DNA of 64,000 bases from Polyangia bacterium (GCA_030429545.1 JAUIFF010000006.1:62001-126000); one strand, 5' to 3'; shown: positions 26,127 to 38,285, numbered from the stretch's first letter. Notes: generated by a model from the sequence alone, not told the origin. Translations and numbers: made by a program.

Positions 26127-27593
26127 CTACTGCAACGAAATCTCGACGAGCTCACGGGTCATCGCCAACACCGTGTCGCGCCGGGCGAGTTGTTGGACCC
26201 ACGCCGAAGGGATCGCACGACGCCCGTAGATGACCCCCGCAATCGCCCCGGCCACGGCCGCAGTTGTGTCGGTATCGTCGCCTAGATTGACGGCCTTGAG
26301 CACGGCGGCCCGGTAGTTTGTGGTGGTCGCACAACACCACAGGCTGGCTTCGAGGCAGTGGATGACATAGCCACTACTTTGGATGTCCGACTCCTCGGCC
26401 TTGAGCACCTCACCCGAAAGGATGCGGGCAAACACCGGTTGTTCCGACGCGGGAATCTGCGGCCCGAGCTCAGTGGCAGCCGCAGCCATGGCCGCGGCCA
26501 GGTCACTGCCCGTGAGCAATTGTTGAATCAGCAACGAAAAGTAGGCACAGCAAAGCTGCGAGCGCACATGGGCGTGGGTCAGGGCACTGACTTCACCACT
26601 TTTGGCGATGATCTCATGGGCCTCCCGCCGGTGGAGATAGGCACTGAGTGGGTAGATCCGCATCAGCGAACCATTGCCGTTGCTGCGCTCCCCGTTGCCG
26701 CCCCACTCCTCGCGCGGCTTGCCATTGAGATGGCGATTGATCGCCTCACGGGTCGAGATACCAATGTCGAAAACCTTGCCGTGGGGGGTGAAGTGGCGGT
26801 GCTCGTACCAGTTGCCAAACTTCACCATGATGTCCTCGGGGTCATAGCCGTCGCACAGGCTGGCGAGCGTGGCCAGGGCCATCGAGCTGTCGTCCGACCA
26901 GGTCCCCGGAGGTTGGTTGTGGGTGCCAAACCCGGTCATTTCGCTCACCGGATGCTCGACAAAATGCGCCCGCGGTTTGAACTCGGCCGGGACCCCGACC
27001 GCATCGCCACACAAAAGCCCGAGCATGCCCCCGGCAAGCCGCTCGCGCACACCCGGCGGACGGCCGTGGAGCGCCAGCGTGCGCTCCAACGCAGCCGACA
27101 CCTCGGCCTCAAAACACACCAAAATCACCTCGCGGATCGGCGAGTTGGGATGGTCGTCGAAGTACGATTCGATTGCAGATACAGCAATCGCACAGGCGGC
27201 CGGAATCGGGTAGGCGTAGACACCACAGGAGATCGCTGGAAAGGCAATGGTTTGCAGGTCGCGTGCGTCGGCGAGTTCGAGACAGCGGCGGTAACACGAC
27301 GCCAGCAACAACGGCTCCCCCCGGCCCCCCCCGCGCCACACCGGACCAACCGTGTGGATCACGTGGCGACACGGCAGGTCATAGGCCCCCGTGACCTTGG
27401 CATCGCCGGTATCGCAGCCGCCCAGGCCGCGACACTCCTCGACCAACATCGGCCCAGCCGCGCGATGGATCGCCCCATCGACGCCACCACCCCCGAGCAG
27501 CGAGCGCTTGGCAGCGTTGACAATGGCATCGACGCGCAACTTGGTGATGTCGCCCCGCGTCAGTTTGATTCGACCCGTCGAAGTCCCGTGCAT
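26127..27593 (-). CDS. Macro domain fused to ADP-ribosylglycohydrolase
   Basis: From ATG 27593 the protein has 488 residues. Residues about 8-170 form a macro domain of the deacetylase/ADP-ribose-removing type: [20 protein letters not shown] with the Gly-rich loop, HIHTVGP-like [10 protein letters not shown], and [13 protein letters not shown]. Residues about 180-485 form an ARH/DraG domain: [34 protein letters not shown] (metal-binding Asp) and [18 protein letters not shown] (second metal site). Both halves are erasers of ADP-ribose, so one polypeptide could remove different linkages. No ADP-ribosyltransferase is visible nearby. Confidence 0.9.
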
Positions 27594-28619: not shown

Positions 28620-29280
28620 CGTCATACCTCGCGCGCCCACAGTCGTGGTTGACCACGACGTGGCAGGAGAACCCTAGAACAACGCTCTGTAAATTTGTTT
28701 TATTTGACTATGCACTAATATCTCGTCCGTCATCGGCATGACGCACGTCGGGCTGTACACCGTGCGAGGGCCACCGTGGACAGCCTCTTGACCCAGACTC
28801 GCAGCGACATGCATGCAGGTACAAATTATTTCGCCAACCGGGCCCCATTCTCAGCGAGGCGTTTGCGCTGTCCCGGATCGAACGGTTGCCCCGCTGGGTT
28901 GCGGGGCGACACTCGTTTCCGCGCTCCGAAAGTGCCCCTGCGACAAAGTCTCGAAGTTCCGCAACTTCACAGGCGCTTGCACGCGTGAGCGAAACAGGAC
29001 GCGAAAGTTTTCGCCGGCTCGCGGGCGGTACGCACGCTCCTCCGAGAACTCATTTCTCGAAGCATTTGGGGACCGTCCAGACCGTGCTAGCTCGTCCTTT
29101 TTGCGAGGTTTTTGCCTCTGTCGAAGCCCGAACAACACATTTCACGACCCTGTCCGGTCCTTCGCGTTGGCGCGCAGCTCCTGCGCATCGCTCGACGAAG
29201 CCAACAACCAGTTTTGTCGTAATGATCTGCGTGTGAGCAACGGAGCGCCACTCACCACTGTGTTCCTGGCAAACATCGAC
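28620..29280. other. 660-bp non-coding region upstream of the sigma factor gene
   Basis: No gene with a domain is seen. The left part (28680-28740) is AT-richer than its surroundings. A TGYANNTRCA motif lies at 28814-28823, the last one for more than 10 kb. The sigma-factor frame is open upstream of its ATG to 28813 but is Arg/Ser/Cys-rich and unlike the family there, so I treat it as untranslated leader. A long regulated 5' region for the sigma factor is plausible. Confidence 0.5.
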
Positions 29281-30129
29281 ATGGCCCAGGCAACCGTGCT
29301 CGACCAAGGCCCCGACCTCGAGCAGGCCCTGCAGGAGCTTTGGCTGCGCGGGCGGGCGTCGTGGCCCGAAGTCGCCGTCGAAATCGAGCAGTTCTTGGCA
29401 CTCATCGGCCGTCGCTTCGCGCCCGGGACCAGCGCAGCGATACGCATGCTCCACGCCGACGACCTCTACCTCCTGTGCGCCTACCTGTCTGGCGCTCCGG
29501 GGGCGAGCACATCTTTTGAAAGCGAGTTCTTTACCCGAGTGGCCCGCGCACTCAAGCGCAGCCGTGCGACCGACGACGAGATCGCTGAGATCCAACAGAT
29601 ACTGCGGGAGCGGCTCCTCAACGACCGCCGCTCGACCCCGGCACGCAGCCACTATGCCGGCACCGGTAGCCTCGGCTCGTGGCTGTGCATCAGTGCTGTC
29701 CGCGAGCTTTGGCGGATGCGGCAGCGAAGCCACCGCGAGGCCCTCGACGAACACACGCTCGAGCAGCTCCCAGCCCACGACGAGGACCAGGAACTCGCAT
29801 ACCTCAAGGCACTTTATCGGCGCGAGTTTAAAGAAGCGTTTAGCGAGGCCCTCGACTCGCTGACGCCAAAGGAGCGCAACGTCTTGCGGTACAACGTCCT
29901 CAAGGGCCTCAATATCACCGAGATCGGTGCGATCTACAGGGTTCATCGGGCGACGATCGCCCGCTGGATCGCCCGCGCCCGCGATCAACTCAAGGCCGAG
30001 ACCCATGCCGCCCTCACCCGCAAGGTCGAGCTTCGCGGGCGCGACCTCGAAAGCGTCTTGCGCCTCATCGAGAGCCAACTCGATGTCAGTCTGCGCAGGC
30101 GCCTCGGCGAAGAACCGCCGCCCACCTAG
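29281..30129 (+). CDS. RNA polymerase sigma-70 factor, myxobacterial family
   Basis: From ATG 29281 the protein has 282 residues. Region 4 is clear: EALDSLTPKERNVLRYNVLK then LNITEIGAIYRVHRATIARW, a sigma-4 helix-turn-helix. Region 2-like helices lie around residues 60-160, including GSLGSWLCISAVRELWRMRQ. It resembles the Myxococcales-specific sigma family (TIGR03001 type), which is often found near Ser/Thr kinases. A kinase with an anti-sigma-like zinc finger lies 4 kb away in the same cluster. It is convergent with the first FAD oxidase, their ends overlapping by 4 bp. Confidence 0.9.
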   Translation: MAQATVLDQGPDLEQALQELWLRGRASWPEVAVEIEQFLALIGRRFAPGTSAAIRMLHADDLYLLCAYLSGAPGASTSFESEFFTRVARALKRSRATDDEIAEIQQILRERLLNDRRSTPARSHYAGTGSLGSWLCISAVRELWRMRQRSHREALDEHTLEQLPAHDEDQELAYLKALYRREFKEAFSEALDSLTPKERNVLRYNVLKGLNITEIGAIYRVHRATIARWIARARDQLKAETHAALTRKVELRGRDLESVLRLIESQLDVSLRRRLGEEPPPT

Positions 30130-31640
30130 CTGCCTGTCGACCCGACGCCATACCTCCCAGGTGCGAGAATCCCCAAAGGGTCGAGTTCCCGTTTGAGCCG
30201 CTCGAGAAGCTGCGTGCGCGCCGAGTCATAAAGCGCTGCTGCACTTTGATGGGCAATGTCGGTGCGGTGACAACCCATGCCCCCTTCACGAAACGCCGAG
30301 TGAAGCGCATCGAGGGCCGCGTGTGCACGCTGTGTCTCGACCGCGGATCTCCGATCGAAGCGGATCGCGACCAGGCTTTCCGCCGCGCTGTCATCGAGGA
30401 TGTTGAAGGTGATCCCAAGGGGCACACCATGCCTGGCACCGATCTCCATACACAGCCCCGCGGCACGCTCAAAGACCTCTGGCTCAACGACCAGTGATGG
30501 CACGAAGGCGAGCCAGCCACCTGTCCCTTGCTGATCGATCTCCAGCGTCCGCGCACCCGCTAGCTCGTAGACGCTGATGTCCTGTGGCTCACCCAGGTAG
30601 AGGCGACTAAAGCGGCGTTCCATCTCATCGCGGGCCTCGTCCGGACCGCGAAACAGCCTCAACGCCTCAACAACTCCAGCAAGGGCGCCGCGTACCTCCG
30701 CAGCCGCGGCCGCGGCCATCGTCGCTGTGCCGCGATAGGCCGCGAAAAGCACGTATTCCCCACCAGGCTGGCCGAACCCGTAGCTCGCCCGCATCTGCGT
30801 GTTGAGGAACTTTGCAACGCAATTGATCGCACCGTCGCGGACCAACCGACGCACTGCCGCGACCGCCTCCCCGAACCGGGACGCCGGCACCCGACCATGC
30901 AACACCATGAGCACTTCGGGGCGTGGAACGAGCCCGATCGCCGCGGCCGTCACGACACCAAGGTTTGACTGGACAAACAACTCGGCGAGACCAGGGCCAA
31001 CCCCGACCCGCCGGTGAAATCGGTGCATGTCGTCGCGTCCGTCCGACCAACTTCCCGTGCGTACGATCGATCCATCGGCAAGCATGACTTCGAGTGCCCG
31101 CAAATCCTCGGCCCGCGCCCGCACAAAACCGACGCCGCGCTCGAGGAGGTTGCCGACGACACTCGAGTCAGAACTCGAGCCGGTGATGTTGAGCATCCAG
31201 GGAGTCCCGGCGAGAGCCCGCGATAGCTCTCCTTGGCTGACGCCGCTCTCAACCACGGCAACACCCCGCGAGAGGTCGAGCTCTCGGATCTCACGCAGGC
31301 GCGAGAGGTCGAGGATCACCGCGTCGTCGTCGACCGCTTTGCGTGAGCCCAGACCCCAATTCCGGCCGCGGCTAATCGTATAAACCGGCAGCGGCGGCTC
31401 GGCGCTGGCCACCTCGAGCACCGCCCGCAGTTCGCCCTGGTCTTTGGGGGTGATCACGGCCCCGGGGCGACCGCGTTGGAACTCGCCAATGTCTTCGCCA
31501 AAGGCGGCTAGCCGCGCGCGCGAGCCCGGCGTCGCCCCGAGCCGACGGGCGAGTTCGCGGCCGACCTCAGAGCTGGCGAACTCGGCATCGAGCGCCAATG
31601 TTTTGCTATTTGGGCCCGCGTTCGCTTGGAGCTTTGGCAT
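30126..31640 (-). CDS. FAD-linked oxidase, VAO/PCMH type
   Basis: About 504 residues from ATG 31640; a longer start at 31676 is possible. The PCMH FAD-binding region (about 60-235) shows PVYTISRGRNWGLGSRKAV and MLNITGSSSDSSVVGNLLER, and the C-terminus DPLGILAPGRYG is typical of the vanillyl-alcohol oxidase / p-cresol methylhydroxylase group. Such enzymes oxidise phenolic or hydroxy-acid substrates with covalently or tightly bound FAD. It is divergent (about 110 bp) from a related oxidase-acyltransferase fusion. Substrate unknown. Confidence 0.88.
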   Translation of the reverse strand: MPKLQANAGPNSKTLALDAEFASSEVGRELARRLGATPGSRARLAAFGEDIGEFQRGRPGAVITPKDQGELRAVLEVASAEPPLPVYTISRGRNWGLGSRKAVDDDAVILDLSRLREIRELDLSRGVAVVESGVSQGELSRALAGTPWMLNITGSSSDSSVVGNLLERGVGFVRARAEDLRALEVMLADGSIVRTGSWSDGRDDMHRFHRRVGVGPGLAELFVQSNLGVVTAAAIGLVPRPEVLMVLHGRVPASRFGEAVAAVRRLVRDGAINCVAKFLNTQMRASYGFGQPGGEYVLFAAYRGTATMAAAAAAEVRGALAGVVEALRLFRGPDEARDEMERRFSRLYLGEPQDISVYELAGARTLEIDQQGTGGWLAFVPSLVVEPEVFERAAGLCMEIGARHGVPLGITFNILDDSAAESLVAIRFDRRSAVETQRAHAALDALHSAFREGGMGCHRTDIAHQSAAALYDSARTQLLERLKRELDPLGILAPGRYGVGSTGS

Positions 31641-31749
31641 CTCCACTAAGAGCCATGTCGCCCAAGCTTGTCGCACTTAAATCATGGCCGGCGCCAAAAA
31701 AACTATGCGGCTGCGTGCGACAAGCTGACTGCGAGCGGCTCTCCACCGC

Positions 31750-34074
31750 ATGAACCGCAACTTGCAGTGCCTCGAGACCCCTGCCGATGAAGATCGCGTC
31801 ACCCAGCACTTTTGCGACGCGCTTGGCGAGAGCGCTGTCGATGTCCGACCAGCTTCACTTGACGCGGCCGCGACCGCGACTTTTGCGACCGAGGCTCGCA
31901 TCCGCGGAATCCTCCGACCACGTAGCCGCGAGGAGGTCCAACGCTGCGTCCGTATCGCCCGCGCTGAAGCCGTCCCCCTCTACCCGATTAGCGGCGGCAA
32001 GAACTGGGGCCTGGGTTCACGGGTGCCGACGACCGACGGAGCCTACCTCCTCGACCTTGGCGGGATGGCGCGGATCCTCGACTACGACGCTGAGCTCGCC
32101 CATGTGACGATCGAACCTGGGGTGTCCTTTGGACAGCTCGCCACCTTCCTCCGCGAGCGCGGCGAGCGCCACCTCCTCTCAACGACCGGCTCGACGCCGG
32201 CTTCGAGCGTCATCGGCAATACCGTTGAGCGTGGCGACGGGATTGGGCCATTGGGCGACCGGGCTGCACACGTCTGTGCCCTCGAGGTGGTACTCGGTAC
32301 AGGCGAGGTCATCGAAACCGGGTTTGCCCGTTTCTCGGGGGCGAGCGCAGCCCGGGCCTACCGCTGGGGCGTCGGTCCGAGCCTCGACAGCCTCTTCCAG
32401 CAAAGCAACTTGGGGATCGTCACGCGAATGACTGTGTGGCTCACCCCGCGGCCCGCGGCGCTCTTGGCCTTTCGCTTCGCCGTCGGCGATGCCAGCCAGC
32501 TCGGGTCGGCGATGGAGGCGATTCGCCAACTCCGCCTCGAAGGCACACTGCGCTCACTTGTCGCCGTGTGGAACGACTTCCGTGTGCTCTCGACGCGGGT
32601 CAACATCCCGTGGGGCGATGCTTCGCCACGGGCGATCCTCCGCGAGGAGCTCGCGGCGCTCGTGGGCGGAGAGGTCGCGCCTTGGTACGGGATGGGAGCG
32701 GTCTACGCCGGCTCGCCGGCCCTCGCCGAAGCGGCCCGGCTGCGCATCGCCGAGGTCCTCGGCCCGCACACAGCAGACCTCATCTTTGAGGAGCAGCGCC
32801 GTGGTGCGTCCACCATCGTCCACACCGCCAACGACGGGCGCAGCCTCGCGGCCTTTGGTAGCGGCGACGCGGCCTTTGCACTGCTCGGCGGCCAACCACA
32901 GGAGGCAAGCCTGGCATCCGCCTACTTCCGCAAGGAAGTACTCCCTCCTGCCGGTGATCGCGACCTCGATCGCGACCGCTGCGGTGTGATGTGGTCGTGC
33001 CCGGTCGTCCCACTGCGCGCCACCGACATCGAGCGAGCCGCGGCGATCTGCGAGACCAGCATGACCGACCACGGTTTCGAACCGATGCTTGCGCTCCTCG
33101 CCCAACACGACCGCACGGCCTACCTCGTGCCGATCATCATCTACGACCGCGACGTGCCTGGCGACGACACACGCGCACGCACCTGCCACGACGCCTGCCT
33201 CGCGGCGCTGATCGACGCTGGCTACCTGCCCTACCGTCTCGGTGTCCAGTCGATGGGCGCCCTACCGCAACCTAACGACGACTCCGTCGCCCTCTTTGGC
33301 CGTCTCAAGCACGCCTTTGACCCCGACGAGATCCTCGCACCCGGTCGCTACGACCCCCGCCGTGCACGGGGTGACGACGCTATTGGAGGGGGTGAACCGG
33401 CATCGACGAGCAACCCGAACATCCTTGACGGGACCGTCCTCGGCGCACCTGAACTCGCCGGCGAGGACTGCTTGTTTTACGCCTTTCGACCGGCGCTCCA
33501 CCCTGAGCTCGCCGATCAGGTGGAGGCCGCCCACCGCGAAGTACTCGCGGAGTACTGCGTTGAGGGCCTCACGATCCGCACGCCGCTTCGCACCCAGCAG
33601 GCAACCTGGATGGTCGTTGCCCGCACACAGCCCGGCGCGCCTCCTTGTGGCGCTGTGCGCCTCGAACTTCCGACTCCACAGACACCAACTCCGCTCGAGA
33701 CGATCGTCGCCGACCACTTCCCCCACCAGCTGCGAGACCTGTGCGCCGCGCTGCATGGGAGTGCCGAGATCGCGGGGCTCTGGGTCGCCCGCGACCACCG
33801 ACGCCGCGGCCTATCCCGCGCCCTGATGCTCGCCGGCATCCATCTCGCCAAGCGCCTCCAACTCGCCCAGCTCTACGGAATCGCGGCCGGACACGTCATC
33901 CCGACCTTCGTCCAGACCGGTGCCTGCATCGAGCGGCGGTTCTCCGGCGAAGGCCCGCTCCCCTACCCGTCGACCCGCTACCAGTCGCACTTGCTGCGTT
34001 GGGATCTATCCCCATGTCGGCGCGATGCGGCCGTGCGAACGAGTCCTCGGCTGGTGCCATTTTCACGATACTGA
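31750..34074 (+). CDS. FAD-linked oxidase fused to a GNAT-type acyltransferase
   Basis: A 774-residue two-domain protein. Residues about 1-535 are a VAO/PCMH oxidase (PLYPISGGKNWGLGSRVPTT, LLSTTGSTPASSVIGNTVER, ending FDPDEILAPGRYDP), related to the divergent neighbour. After a linker of about 25 residues, residues about 565-755 form a GNAT-like domain: IAGLWVARDHRRRGLSRALM carries the acetyl-CoA-binding R-x-x-G-L/A motif, and the following helix and strand fit N-acyltransferases. It may oxidise a substrate and then acylate it. The exact reaction is unknown. No stop or frameshift separates the two domains. Confidence 0.88.
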   Translation: MNRNLQCLETPADEDRVTQHFCDALGESAVDVRPASLDAAATATFATEARIRGILRPRSREEVQRCVRIARAEAVPLYPISGGKNWGLGSRVPTTDGAYLLDLGGMARILDYDAELAHVTIEPGVSFGQLATFLRERGERHLLSTTGSTPASSVIGNTVERGDGIGPLGDRAAHVCALEVVLGTGEVIETGFARFSGASAARAYRWGVGPSLDSLFQQSNLGIVTRMTVWLTPRPAALLAFRFAVGDASQLGSAMEAIRQLRLEGTLRSLVAVWNDFRVLSTRVNIPWGDASPRAILREELAALVGGEVAPWYGMGAVYAGSPALAEAARLRIAEVLGPHTADLIFEEQRRGASTIVHTANDGRSLAAFGSGDAAFALLGGQPQEASLASAYFRKEVLPPAGDRDLDRDRCGVMWSCPVVPLRATDIERAAAICETSMTDHGFEPMLALLAQHDRTAYLVPIIIYDRDVPGDDTRARTCHDACLAALIDAGYLPYRLGVQSMGALPQPNDDSVALFGRLKHAFDPDEILAPGRYDPRRARGDDAIGGGEPASTSNPNILDGTVLGAPELAGEDCLFYAFRPALHPELADQVEAAHREVLAEYCVEGLTIRTPLRTQQATWMVVARTQPGAPPCGAVRLELPTPQTPTPLETIVADHFPHQLRDLCAALHGSAEIAGLWVARDHRRRGLSRALMLAGIHLAKRLQLAQLYGIAAGHVIPTFVQTGACIERRFSGEGPLPYPSTRYQSHLLRWDLSPCRRDAAVRTSPRLVPFSRY

Positions 34075-34093
34075 CGCATTCCAACCAACCAAA

Positions 34094-34131
34094 CGCTAGA
34101 AAGCCGTTGTCGATACAAGTAAATTCTAGCG
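34094..34131. terminator. Inverted repeat between convergent genes
   Basis: CGCTAGAA (34094-34101) and TTCTAGCG (34124-34131) are perfect inverted copies with a 22-base loop. The right arm contains the TAG stop of the kinase gene. No T-run follows, so its use as a terminator is only suspected. Confidence 0.35.
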
Positions 34132-36894
34132 AACTGTGGGAGCTACACCCTGTGAAGACCTGTCCCTAATGCCATCTTGCTGCGCAAGCCAAGCTTCGAT
34201 CGTGGCCACCTCGCGGATCCCCCCGCGACCGAGCTTGCGATAGATCGCTAGGGCGCGCTCAGCCTCCGCCCGCGCCACTGTCGGTGGTTCGCCGGCATCG
34301 AGCTTTGCCCGCGCGAGAGCAAAGCCGACGCGTGCGCGCTGCTCCGGCTGGACCTCCGCCTTTGCCAGCGCGAGTGCGGCTCGCTCGAGAACCTCTCGGG
34401 CACGCTCCGGCGAATCGACCCAAAGCTTTGCGATCCCAACCTCGCCCAGAGCGAGTGCTGTGAGAGGGTGCTCCGCCCCAAGCACGGCAAGGCGTCGCTC
34501 ATATGCGACTCGCACCCTGGCCGCGCCACCCTCCCGGTCGATCCCTGAGGCGACCTCGAGCGCCCCGAGTTCAAGCGCCACCTCGACCCAAAGAAGATGC
34601 TCCGCTCCGAGCAGACGCTCACGGATCGCCAGCGCCTTGCGAAAATGCTGGTGAGCCGTCGTCGGCTCCCCATTCGCCACACCGAGCCGTCCCAGATTTA
34701 GCAATACGTGTGATCGATCGAGCTCACCGTCATCGCCAAGCGCCACGCGAATCGCCAACGCCCGTCGCAGGTAAGCCCGTGCCTCACTGAGATACCCGCG
34801 CGCCAGATAGGCCTCGCCAATGTTGTTGAGACTCGCGGCGACCCGTGTGTGCGAGCCGCCGAGACTGCCCAAGCGCAGCGCAAGCGCACGCTCTTGCAGG
34901 TCGATCACCTCCTCCCACCGACCGAGCGCTGCGAGGGAAAGCCCCTGCGCCGACAGGGCGCTGGCCACTGCCACGTCTGAACTCGGAAGCGTCGCATAGA
35001 TCGCCTCGGCCTCTGCACCTGCGGCGAACGCCTCATGGTAACGCCCGATTGAGTACAGGTAGTGGCTGCGTAGCGACCGCACGCGCCCCTCGGTCGCCCG
35101 GCTTTCGCCCCGCCGAGCAAACGCTCTCTCAGTGTGACCGATCCCGCGACGTGCTCCCGAGAGCAGGCCAAGCGACGCGTCGACAATCGTGAGCTCGAGC
35201 CAGATCTCTGGGAGTATGGCGTCGTAGCGTGTGTCCTCAGCGAGTGCGAGGGCCCGCTCGAGCGTGGCTTGGGCCGCGAGAACCTCGCCACGCCGCAGCT
35301 CGACCTGGCCGTGCCGGAGAAGCGCCTCGACGAGCAGCGGCGGGTATTCGAGTGCCTCCGCCTCTGCGAGAACCTCTCGCACCGACGCCATGGCTGCACC
35401 CAACTTCCCGGCGAGGAAGAGGCGTTGGACCTCCTCCAGGCGCATGCGCAACGCCAGCTGTGCTGGCTCAAACGGCGGCGGCCTGACAACGTCGACCTCG
35501 AGGCAACTAGCGACCAATCGATACTCGAGCGGCTGCTTGGCGAGGAAAGCGAGGGTCGGTCCGTCCGCACTCCCAGCGGCATTGACCAGTTTGCGCAGGA
35601 CTTCGAGGCTTTGCTCGAGACAGATGCGCGAGGACTCCTGTCGACCTTCTTCCCCGAGGCAGACCTCACCGTAGGCCACCAGCCAGGCCTCGGCTGTCGC
35701 GTCGAGAGTCCGGATGAGTTTGGCCATCGGCACCTCCTCGTCCGGGCCAGCGCGCGCGACCAGAACGTGCCGCGCCTGGGCGTTCCAAGCTGCTTCGAGG
35801 AGCTGTGAAGGGTCACCACACTTGCCCTTTGCCGGCAGGGCAATCCCTCCGAGGGCGATCCCGAGAGCCGCGGCTCCACTGGCGAGCGTCCATCGCCACG
35901 CCCGCCTGCCGAGGCCCCGCTCGAGGGCGTCACAAAGCGCGTCGATCGTTGCGAAGCGGTCTTCTGGGTCGCACGCGAGCGCACGGGCCACAACCGGGTC
36001 GAGCCAACGCGGGAACCCGCGCCCGAGCCCCTGCGGTCCCGCTTTGATCGCCGCCACGTTGACGGCCGCAAATGGTCCGCGCCCGGTAAGTGCCTCATAA
36101 AGTGCCACCGCGAACGCAAACTGATCGCTGCGCGCGCTGCCAGGCCTGCCACTCAGCTGCTCCGGCGACATGTAACGCGGCGTGCCCACAAGCCACGAGC
36201 CGGTCTGCCCCTCGCGCTCGGGCGAACGCGCGAGACCGAAGTCTGTCACTCGGACACGACCGTCGACACCGACGAGCACATTGTCGGCCTTGAAGTCGCA
36301 GTGGACGATCCCCTGGCGGTGCGCCGCCGCGAGTCCGCGACCGGCGTCGACGTACGCCTGGACGATCGCCCGCACCGAACGCCTTGGCGGTCCCTCAACC
36401 CACGTCCGCAGCGTCTCCCCGCGGACAAGCTCCATCGCCAGGAAGACCGCGTCGTCGCCCGCAACAACATCAAAGACAACGATGACATTGGGATGGGCGA
36501 GACGCGCGAGCATCTGCGCCTCAGCAAGTAAGCGACCCCTCACCTCCGCGTCGGTGCGGCGAAGCACCTTGAGGGCAACCTCGCGGTCGAGCACACGATC
36601 GTGGGCTGCGTAGACCACACCCATGCCACCGGCGCCAACAAGCTCGCCCACCTCAAAGCGCTCGCTCAACACGACACCCCGCACAAGCGTCCGCCCCGTC
36701 GAGAGCTCGCCCGGACAGCTCCCCGAACTCGAGGACCCACGCGCGGCTCCGATCGCCGCCGCTGCAAGAAGATCGAGACAGCGCGGGCAGCCGTCGATGT
36801 GGGCATCTATCGCCTCGCGGCGGGCGTCGTCCACTTCGACGAGCCCGTGGAGCTCATCCTCAGACAAGCATGTCCGGCTGATTCGCGCGCTCAC
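34126..36894 (-). CDS. Zinc-finger/Ser-Thr protein kinase with TPR repeats
   Basis: From GTG 36894 (GAGG five bases upstream) the protein has about 922 residues; a TTG at 36963 would add 23. The N-terminus carries an anti-sigma-type H-x3-C-x2-C motif (HIDGCPRC, residues about 32-39). A Hanks kinase follows (about 80-335): VGAGGMGVVYAAHD, EVALKVL, HCDFKADNVLV, DFGLARS, GTPRYMSPEQL. The HRD Arg is replaced by Cys (non-RD kinase). A hydrophobic segment (about 335-355) precedes a long C-terminal TPR array. It likely couples a signal to the cluster sigma factor; this link is inference. Confidence 0.9.
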   Translation of the reverse strand: MSARISRTCLSEDELHGLVEVDDARREAIDAHIDGCPRCLDLLAAAAIGAARGSSSSGSCPGELSTGRTLVRGVVLSERFEVGELVGAGGMGVVYAAHDRVLDREVALKVLRRTDAEVRGRLLAEAQMLARLAHPNVIVVFDVVAGDDAVFLAMELVRGETLRTWVEGPPRRSVRAIVQAYVDAGRGLAAAHRQGIVHCDFKADNVLVGVDGRVRVTDFGLARSPEREGQTGSWLVGTPRYMSPEQLSGRPGSARSDQFAFAVALYEALTGRGPFAAVNVAAIKAGPQGLGRGFPRWLDPVVARALACDPEDRFATIDALCDALERGLGRRAWRWTLASGAAALGIALGGIALPAKGKCGDPSQLLEAAWNAQARHVLVARAGPDEEVPMAKLIRTLDATAEAWLVAYGEVCLGEEGRQESSRICLEQSLEVLRKLVNAAGSADGPTLAFLAKQPLEYRLVASCLEVDVVRPPPFEPAQLALRMRLEEVQRLFLAGKLGAAMASVREVLAEAEALEYPPLLVEALLRHGQVELRRGEVLAAQATLERALALAEDTRYDAILPEIWLELTIVDASLGLLSGARRGIGHTERAFARRGESRATEGRVRSLRSHYLYSIGRYHEAFAAGAEAEAIYATLPSSDVAVASALSAQGLSLAALGRWEEVIDLQERALALRLGSLGGSHTRVAASLNNIGEAYLARGYLSEARAYLRRALAIRVALGDDGELDRSHVLLNLGRLGVANGEPTTAHQHFRKALAIRERLLGAEHLLWVEVALELGALEVASGIDREGGAARVRVAYERRLAVLGAEHPLTALALGEVGIAKLWVDSPERAREVLERAALALAKAEVQPEQRARVGFALARAKLDAGEPPTVARAEAERALAIYRKLGRGGIREVATIEAWLAQQDGIRDRSSQGVAPTVR

Positions 36895-38285
36895 ATCGAC
36901 CTCAACCCTGCACCTGAAGCAACAAGGCTCGCCCACTATGGTTGCGAAGGGCCGTATGAGCAAGCCGCCTCACTGAGCCTTTGAGCGCCACCACCAGTCG
37001 AAACAACCACGCCTCCGCGCGCCACCAGTCGAAACAACCACGACCGCACCACGATTCGCGGCCATCTTTTTCCCAGGCTACCGAGCCCGAAGTCGTGAAC
37101 AGCAACTGCCACTACTCCCACGACTACGCCCGCGCCCAAAGTTGTGGGCCGCCACGCCACGATTCGCGGTGACCTTTTGCCAGGGTGCGAGCCCGAAGCA
37201 GCGACGCTGTCAACCCACTGCGAGCCCCCGCGCGCCACCAGTCGAAACAACCACGCCCGCACCACGATTCGCGGTGATATTTTTGCCAGGGTGCGAGCCC
37301 GAAGCAGCGACGCTGTCAACCCACTGCGAGCCCCCGCGCCCACCAGTCGAAACCACCACGCCCGCACCACGATTCGCGGCCATCTTTTTCCCAGGGTGCG
37401 AGCCTGAAGCGGCGACGCTTATCTGCTGCGAGCCCACCGAGTCGAAACAACCACGCCCGCACCACGATTCGCGGCCATCTTTTTCCCAGGCTATCGATCC
37501 CAAAGCGGCGACACTTTCGGAAGCGGGTGGGGTGCTCCGTTGAAAAAGTGTATATTCAAACGAAAGCCGGTCGACCACGTGCACTTGAAGTTGTGTTGCG
37601 GCTGGCGAGCGGACATCGACCTCGACCCTCGCCCCCAAAACGGCGACGCTGACAGCCTACTCCGAGCCGCTGTCAGCCCTACTCCGAGCCGACTACGCCC
37701 CCGCGCGCCACCAGTCGAAACAACCACGCCCGCACCACGATTCGCTGTCATCTTCTTGCCCCCCTAGTCGACTACTACGCCAGTCGAAACCACCACGCCC
37801 GCACCACGACTCGCTGTCATCTTTTTGCCAGGCTGCGAGTCCGAAGCGGCGGGACCCACTGCAAGCCGCTCCCGTGCCCCTATGCCCCCGCGCGCCACCA
37901 GTCGAAACCACCACGATTCGCGGTGATATTTTTGCCAGGCTGCGAGTCCGAAGCGGCGACGCGTCAGCCTACTCCGAGCCGCCTACTCCGAGCCGCCCCG
38001 CGCGCCACCAGTCGAAACAACCACACCCGCACCACGATTCGCGGCGATATTTTTGCCAGGGTGCGAGTCCGAAGCGGCGACGCTGTGGTGGACCCACTGC
38101 AAGCCGCTCCCGCGCCACTACGCCCCCGCGCGCCACCAGTCGAAACCACCACGCCCGCACCACGATTCGCGGTGATATTTTTGCCAGGGTGCGAGTCCGA
38201 AGCGGCGACGCTGTGGTGGACCCACTGCAAGCCGCTCTCGGGCCGCAGCCTGGCAAAAATAGCCCGCGCGATCCATTCGAATCGT
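36895..38285. repeat. Hairpin-repeat array 1 (about ten degenerate ~95-130-bp units)
   Basis: Core AGTCGAAACAACCACGCC-type starts occur at about 36996, 37027, 37240, 37345, 37440, 37713, 37782, 37900, 38010 and 38138. A full unit continues CACGATTCGCGG, ATATTTTTGCCAGGGTGCGAG, GAAGCGGCGACGCTG and CTGCAAGCCGCTC. The last unit ends in an inverted copy of its own first half: 38169-38206 pairs with 38231-38267. ORFs here are Gly/Arg/Val repeats with no domain. A 37540-37650 island is unrelated to the unit and recalls the sequence just upstream of the kinase start. Confidence 0.85.
38169..38267. repeat. Terminal hairpin of array 1
   Basis: Left arm 38169-38206 and right arm 38231-38267 are inverted copies over about 37 bases with roughly 80% pairing, including TATTTTTGCCAGG/CCTGGCAAAAATA. 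The tip holds a small stem GTGG/CCAC. It lies 19 bp from the 3' end of the TonB-type gene. Confidence 0.85.

Follow-up and report, generated by a model that had tools for sequence, protein, structure and literature searches.

The bacterial acyl-oxazolone pathways TyzABC, TrzAS (Mycobacterium) and OxzAB (Pseudoalteromonas rubra) combine an amino acid N-acyltransferase of the GNAT/LuxI fold with a flavin-dependent oxidase (PMC10404671, PMC12856293). In acyl-tryptazolone synthesis the acyltransferase gene has a gene for a ThiF–nitroreductase protein, TrzS, beside it (PMC12856293). The sister pathway contains TyzA, a proven Tyr/Phe N-acyltransferase that is structurally closest to FeeM and BjaI (PMC10404671). 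Desaturating flavoenzymes also accompany the acyl amino acid synthases of the FeeM/NasY type and those of the N-acyl dehydrotyrosine clusters of the stieleriacines, thalassotalic acids and kyonggic acids (PMC12479983). For regulation, sigma factor genes adjoining a Hanks-type serine/threonine kinase gene are known from the groups ECF43, ECF59, ECF61, ECF62, ECF217 and ECF283 (PMC8999054), and in ECF43 a phosphothreonine provides the charge missing from region 2.2 (PMC8999054, PMC13147305). Here we describe a locus of a Polyangia bacterium, positions 29281-36894 of a 64000 nt stretch of DNA (GCA_030429545.1 JAUIFF010000006.1:62001-126000; hereafter the window), in which a sigma factor gene and a kinase gene enclose two genes for flavin adenine dinucleotide (FAD)-dependent oxidases of the vanillyl alcohol oxidase/p-cresol methylhydroxylase (VAO/PCMH) type, the second of them fused to a GNAT domain that is predicted to be an amino acid acyltransferase.

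The original prediction had treated these genes as one signalling or small-molecule cluster, in which oxidation and acylation make a small molecule that the sigma factor and kinase control or respond to. The open reading frames and domain matches agree with its gene map: only four reading frames are present, with none intervening and with short gaps. The sigma factor and oxidase 1 genes overlap by 4 bp at their stops, the two oxidase genes are divergent with 109 bp between them, and 51 bp separate oxidase 2 from the kinase gene. The four genes are, however, two units, a sigma factor/kinase module and an oxidase pair, rather than one conserved cluster. No other locus of the oxidase 2 family has a TIGR03001 sigma factor gene alongside, searches of 20 sigma factor/kinase loci with the window proteins gave no oxidase match, and sigma factor, kinase and oxidase occur together in no other genome examined. 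The view that the sigma factor and kinase flank the oxidases is thus right as to position but not as to mere flanking, since the two are halves of a normally adjacent module. This regulatory half is a common myxobacterial module, split here, and the enzyme half is more interesting than the earlier framing allowed. The features of the locus are as follows (L- and G-numbers below denote loci and genomes sampled for comparison).

29281-30129, plus strand: sigma-70-type sigma factor, TIGR03001 (Myxococcales family 1), 282 aa; 198.8 bits, cut-off 154.6
30126-31640, minus strand: oxidase 1, VAO/PCMH-type FAD-dependent oxidase, 504 aa; FAD_binding_4 7e-22
31665-31676, plus strand: left arm of a perfect 12-bp inverted repeat, AGCTTGTCGCAC, between oxidases 1 and 2
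31715-31726, plus strand: right arm of the perfect 12-bp inverted repeat, GTGCGACAAGCT, 38 nt from the left arm
31750-34074, plus strand: oxidase 2–acyltransferase fusion, 774 aa; FAD_binding_4 2e-22, Acetyltransf_1 9e-5
33469-34035, plus strand: GNAT domain of the fusion, from AlphaFold, Foldseek and a FeeM profile match; closest structures are of BjaI
34126-36894, minus strand: serine/threonine kinase, 922 aa, GTG start; Pkinase 2e-39, C-terminal TPR repeats
36778-36870, minus strand: HX3CX2C finger at the kinase N-terminus (C...H-IDG-C-PR-C); zf-HC2 20.9 bits, cut-off 22.2

The GNAT domain of the fusion

The fusion consists of a VAO/PCMH-type oxidase (residues 1-540) and a FeeM/LuxI-like GNAT domain (approximately residues 574-762), which Pfam sees as a weak acetyltransferase only. 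An AlphaFold model of this domain made from seven sequences had a mean pLDDT of 75, and when it was compared with solved structures using Foldseek the acyl-homoserine-lactone synthase BjaI took ranks 1, 2, 4 and 5 (E 1.1e-7, TM 0.54-0.58). Profile–profile comparison matched the profile of the GNAT homologues to the FeeM profile with a probability of 95.6%, and the FeeM profile retrieved free homologues of the domain (best 2.6e-8). Judged from the model and these profile matches, the domain is probably a distant acyl synthase of the FeeM/LuxI superfamily, i.e. the LuxI/FeeM variant of the GNAT fold.

The free homologues are approximately 250-290 aa long. Three of them, L144, L147 and L142 (the last in the same genome as the window), each lie no more than about 2 kb from a gene for a ThiF–nitroreductase fusion, an arrangement that matches TrzS/TyzBC of acyl-oxazolone synthesis; a second subgroup (L143, L145 and L146) has no such neighbour. 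Taken together, the BjaI and FeeM matches, the ThiF–nitroreductase neighbours and the likeness to TyzA make amino acid N-acylation the best reading of the GNAT domain by analogy. At L142 (1099-10444), the ThiF–nitroreductase fusion gene, a dienelactone-hydrolase-like gene and the GNAT gene adjoin a very large gene of kinase/AAA/GAF/histidine-kinase composition, and this is likely to be an acyl-oxazolone locus with its own sensor.

The oxidase family and its link with acyl amino acid synthases

Both oxidases match VAO/PCMH flavoproteins, oxidase 2 through FAD_binding_4 and a full-length profile match, and among solved structures p-cresol methylhydroxylase, eugenol oxidase and vanillyl alcohol oxidase come nearest to them. 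The clade to which oxidase 2 belongs, with enzymes of approximately 530 aa, has members in a minority of the Polyangia, among the Acidobacteriota and in a single Burkholderiales bin. In Acidobacteriota, other myxobacterial genera and the Burkholderiales bin the family is linked with N-acyl amino acid synthases that are FeeM- or LuxI-like. At six Acidobacteriota loci the gene beside the oxidase encodes a Pfam-less protein, the model of which (pLDDT 80) had BjaI, LasI and FeeM as all of its first eleven Foldseek matches; a seventh locus, in an independently drawn Acidobacteriota genome (G755), contains two such LuxI/FeeM-fold genes within 5 kb of the oxidase. A search with PF21926 detected FeeM genes in six of the 26 oxidase-bearing genomes (one of the six below the cut-off). 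In three of these a FeeM gene lies no more than 5 kb from the oxidase gene: the two overlap in G022, belong to one tight row in G053, and keep within that distance of each other in G194. We estimate the chance of each such coincidence at approximately 0.1-1%, the genomes measuring 4-9 Mb and having one to seven FeeM genes each. The row in G053 (L084, 5800-12645) is tightly packed and reads UDP-glycosyltransferase, oxidase, B12-radical SAM, FeeM, B12-radical SAM; it is likely to be a biosynthetic cluster, and a related glycosyltransferase also occurs in three of the Acidobacteriota loci. In another genus of the same family as our bacterium (G009; L192 8500-9572, minus strand), an eroded C-terminus of oxidase 2 is followed by an eroded GNAT C-terminus, suggesting that the oxidase–GNAT pair was once wider. 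A FeeM gene in the window's own genome (G000:C8) was rejected as a partner, being on another contig with no oxidase nearby. Since a simple gene caller took the wrong strand in some very GC-rich loci, conclusions there were drawn from six-frame searches.

The papers searched contained no description of a vanillyl-alcohol-oxidase-type enzyme joined with an N-acyl amino acid synthase, nor of the oxidase–synthase association or the fusion itself.

Other members of the family carry different C-terminal extensions. In two genomes (L086 and L087) the extension has DDxxD-like motifs and is isoprenoid-synthase-like with no Pfam match, and at L073 (6687-8846) it is a Uma2 domain, with ATP-grasp-like and metallo-hydrolase-like genes adjoining.

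Oxidase 1 most likely starts at the ATG at 31640 (a longer GTG frame extends to 31676) and is a long-branched relative of the oxidase 2 clade. It was rejected as a conserved partner of oxidase 2, because no ortholog was found in 193 relatives of the bacterium or in 379 genomes of the phylum.

We compared the active-site residues using PCMH numbering. In the columns of the phenol-binding residues Tyr95, Tyr473 and Arg474, oxidase 2 has Leu, Tyr and Arg, and oxidase 1 has Leu, His and Arg. Arg474 is invariant across the clade, Tyr473 is retained in oxidase 2 and variable elsewhere, and the position of Tyr95 is either Leu or Tyr; oxidase 2 thus has the Tyr473–Arg474 substrate pair of PCMH. The columns of Glu380 (E380), Glu427 (E427) and the flavin-linking Tyr384 are Ser, Leu and Ala in oxidase 2 and are unconserved in the clade. 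The loss of these three residues, with Leu or Tyr at position 95, indicates that oxidase 2 is not a standard enzyme of either the p-cresol or the vanillyl-alcohol type.

The sigma factor and kinase module

The window sigma factor passes the curated cut-off of TIGR03001 (Sig-70_gmx1) and is one of only two copies above it in the genome. Of 193 related genomes, 98 have a copy above the cut-off, whereas the 14 control genomes have none. Among 20 TIGR03001 loci, surveyed with 4-5 kb of sequence to either side as far as the contig reached, a kinase gene lies directly beside the sigma factor gene in 15, and for at least 11 of these 15 kinases the N-terminal part contains a C-x(n)-HX3CX2C motif. The orientation of the pair varies (same direction, divergent or convergent). 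Two convergent pairs have no insert (L150 and L165; gaps of 13 and 7 bp), and at the second copy of our genome (L090) a finger-kinase-TPR gene is followed 9 bp on by the sigma factor gene, with no oxidases near. The window pair is convergent as well; its genes are not directly adjacent but about 4 kb apart, with the two oxidase genes between. Its kinase has the HX3CX2C motif, scoring just under the zf-HC2 cut-off, and the GTG start at 36894 retains the first cysteine of the finger. A weak hydrophobic segment after the kinase domain is compatible with a possible membrane anchor and a TPR sensor on the outside. Upstream of the kinase gene (36986-38250) there are approximately ten imperfect direct repeats with units of 80-121 nt and a spacing of about 70-440 nt; the genome contains at least 95 copies of the repeat, arrayed on many of its contigs.

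The HX3CX2C finger resembles zinc-binding anti-sigma domains. The simplest model that this resemblance suggests is one in which the finger would hold and then release the sigma factor. In an alignment of 41 TIGR03001-type sigma factors the acidic residues (DE) of region 2.2 are retained in most rows, the window protein having DDEIAE. Since region 2.2 stays acidic, the ECF43 model is not directly transferable, and ECF43-type phosphorylation as such was rejected.

TIGR03001 sigma factors and finger-bearing kinases form a large, class-wide signalling module in Polyangia, on which we found no study under that name and no mention of TIGR03001 in the literature searched. The window locus would be a small, testable case of it.

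The region between the oxidases

The oxidase genes share a region of approximately 110 bp containing the perfect inverted repeat, the arms of which are 38 nt apart. Its 8-mer core, TTGTCGCA, has three copies in the 64 kb, one in each arm and one at 28939, in the long region upstream of the sigma factor gene; as 2.8 copies are expected in the window by chance, only the placement is notable. Other TIGR03001 modules show no enrichment of the repeat's TTGTCG motif in their upstream regions, and no RNA elements were found in the window between 28 and 39.5 kb. The sequence CTTGTCGCAC has 14 copies in the genome, one of which precedes the matched region of another sigma-like gene (L007) by approximately 300 bp. 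A macro domain fused to an ADP-ribosylglycohydrolase is encoded at 26127-27593, 1.7 kb before the sigma factor gene, and a relative of it lies beside an oxidase in L074.

Linkage of kinases with oxidases elsewhere was considered and rejected: kinases lie near several of the oxidases, at a rate close to the background for this kinase-rich group.

Interpretation of the locus

The explanation that best accounts for the whole locus, and to which we give about an even chance, is that a divergent oxidase pair was placed into a sigma factor/zinc-finger-kinase regulatory module. The FeeM/LuxI/TyzA-like GNAT domain of the fusion would most likely join an acyl group to an amino acid, and the VAO/PCMH-type flavin domain would oxidize the N-acyl product, an aromatic side chain being desaturated or hydroxylated, for example. 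A second oxidation is probably the work of oxidase 1, and the two oxidases are probably co-expressed from their shared region. The N-terminal finger of the kinase probably holds the sigma factor, a signal sensed via the kinase would free it, and the oxidases may be among its targets. The enzyme pair resembles a small and unusual pathway for making a modified lipid-amino-acid molecule. The structure of the genes, their family assignments, the predicted GNAT fold, the conserved sigma factor–kinase pairing and the recurring proximity of oxidase-family and N-acyl amino acid synthase genes are shown by the data; the substrates, the reaction, the binding of the sigma factor by the finger and the control of the oxidases are inferred. 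A fuller scheme, in which one protein makes and oxidizes an N-acyl amino acid with a VAO-type domain replacing the nitroreductase, and the product or the need for it is signalled via the finger kinase freeing the neighbouring sigma factor, is in our view distinctly unlikely.

Several observations weigh against this explanation. The GNAT domain alone falls below the FeeM cut-off (PF21926, 13 versus 27 bits), and other, ordinary GNATs follow close behind BjaI in the fold search. Oxidase 2 has lost the third phenol-binding residue, Tyr95, and the catalytic acids E380 and E427 of PCMH. The 64-kb window contains no ThiF gene and no nitroreductase gene either, and no acyl-carrier or export gene was recognized beside the four genes. 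The eroded oxidase–GNAT copy of G009 has neither a sigma factor nor a kinase gene beside it. A promoter common to sigma factor, oxidases and kinase was rejected, there being no three-way element and no enrichment of TTGTCG at other TIGR03001 modules. Lastly, the majority of the myxobacterial oxidases of this family, with the nearest relatives of oxidase 2 among them, showed no synthase in their neighbourhood; this and the varied C-terminal extensions suggest that the family is not bound to one substrate and is a modular oxidase of biosynthetic gene sets.

The same data can be read in other ways. The oxidases might be ordinary catabolic or detoxifying phenol oxidases, with the C-terminal GNAT acetylating a small amine or serving another unrelated role, as the nearest solved structures, the Tyr–Arg pair of oxidase 2 and Acetyltransf_1 as the best Pfam match of the GNAT domain would have it. 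The oxidases do fall within the VAO/PCMH family, but their clade is without the catalytic acids known from the catabolic enzymes and belongs, in several phyla, to rows of biosynthetic genes, and the closest matches of the GNAT domain are of the LuxI/FeeM type; we regard this alternative as unlikely. The original interpretation is partly supported as a whole: the idea of oxidation combined with acylation is supported, by the predicted acyl synthase and because oxidases of this family are linked with such synthases in more than one phylum, whereas the idea of one conserved set of four genes is not.

Regulation leaves more room for disagreement. Because no other genome has all four genes, position is what argues for control of the oxidases by the window sigma factor, and we find such control rather doubtful. 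The oxidase pair may instead have entered between sigma factor and kinase by chance, self-regulated through its inverted repeat and functionally unlinked to them. Everywhere else examined, sigma factor–kinase pairs lack oxidases, oxidases occur without the pair, and the repeat motif is unenriched upstream of other TIGR03001 modules. Against this, the insert lies exactly between sigma factor and kinase with almost no spacer, and the placement of TTGTCGCA, with two copies in the oxidase region and a third upstream of the sigma factor gene, is suggestive only. We consider the case for two independent neighbours evenly balanced, and under it the enzyme reading can still be right. As for the module itself, the kinase might activate the sigma factor by direct phosphorylation, as PknT/PknS act on ECF43 sigma factors, instead of by release from the finger. 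The conserved kinase–sigma factor adjacency is a hallmark of phosphorylation-controlled sigma factor groups (PMC8999054, PMC13147305), but the phosphothreonine logic of ECF43 is inapplicable as such to the mostly acidic TIGR03001 members, and these kinases bear an anti-sigma-like finger, making direct phosphorylation somewhat unlikely and finger release the simpler model.

If the proposed acylation and oxidation by the fusion is true, the N-acyl amino acid pathways make use of another type of oxidizing partner, unrelated to the first and present from Acidobacteriota to myxobacteria, and the oxidase–synthase pair could be used in genome mining for new lipid-amino-acid products.

Comparison with known systems

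The acyl-oxazolone pathways come close to the enzyme half of the locus, in that free homologues of the window GNAT adjoin ThiF–flavin-oxidase fusions. The window oxidase, in contrast, is a VAO/PCMH-type FAD protein and not a nitroreductase-type flavin mononucleotide (FMN) enzyme, and it is fused to the acyltransferase. The FeeM/NasY and N-acyl dehydrotyrosine clusters are approached through the FeeM genes near oxidase 2-family oxidases in three genomes; the published clusters, however, use a nitroreductase and ThiF rather than a VAO-type oxidase, and the window GNAT scores below the FeeM cut-off. The 4-phenol-oxidizing VAO/PCMH enzymes share with oxidase 2 a full-length profile match (to p-cresol methylhydroxylase and eugenol oxidase), the invariant Arg474 and Tyr473, whereas oxidase 2 is without E380/E427, Tyr384 and Tyr95 and has the C-terminal GNAT fusion. 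The regulatory half resembles the ECF sigma factor/kinase pairs in gene adjacency, and differs from them in its TIGR03001 sigma factor, the HX3CX2C finger on the kinase N-terminus, the acidic region 2.2 and the splitting of the window pair by two enzyme genes.

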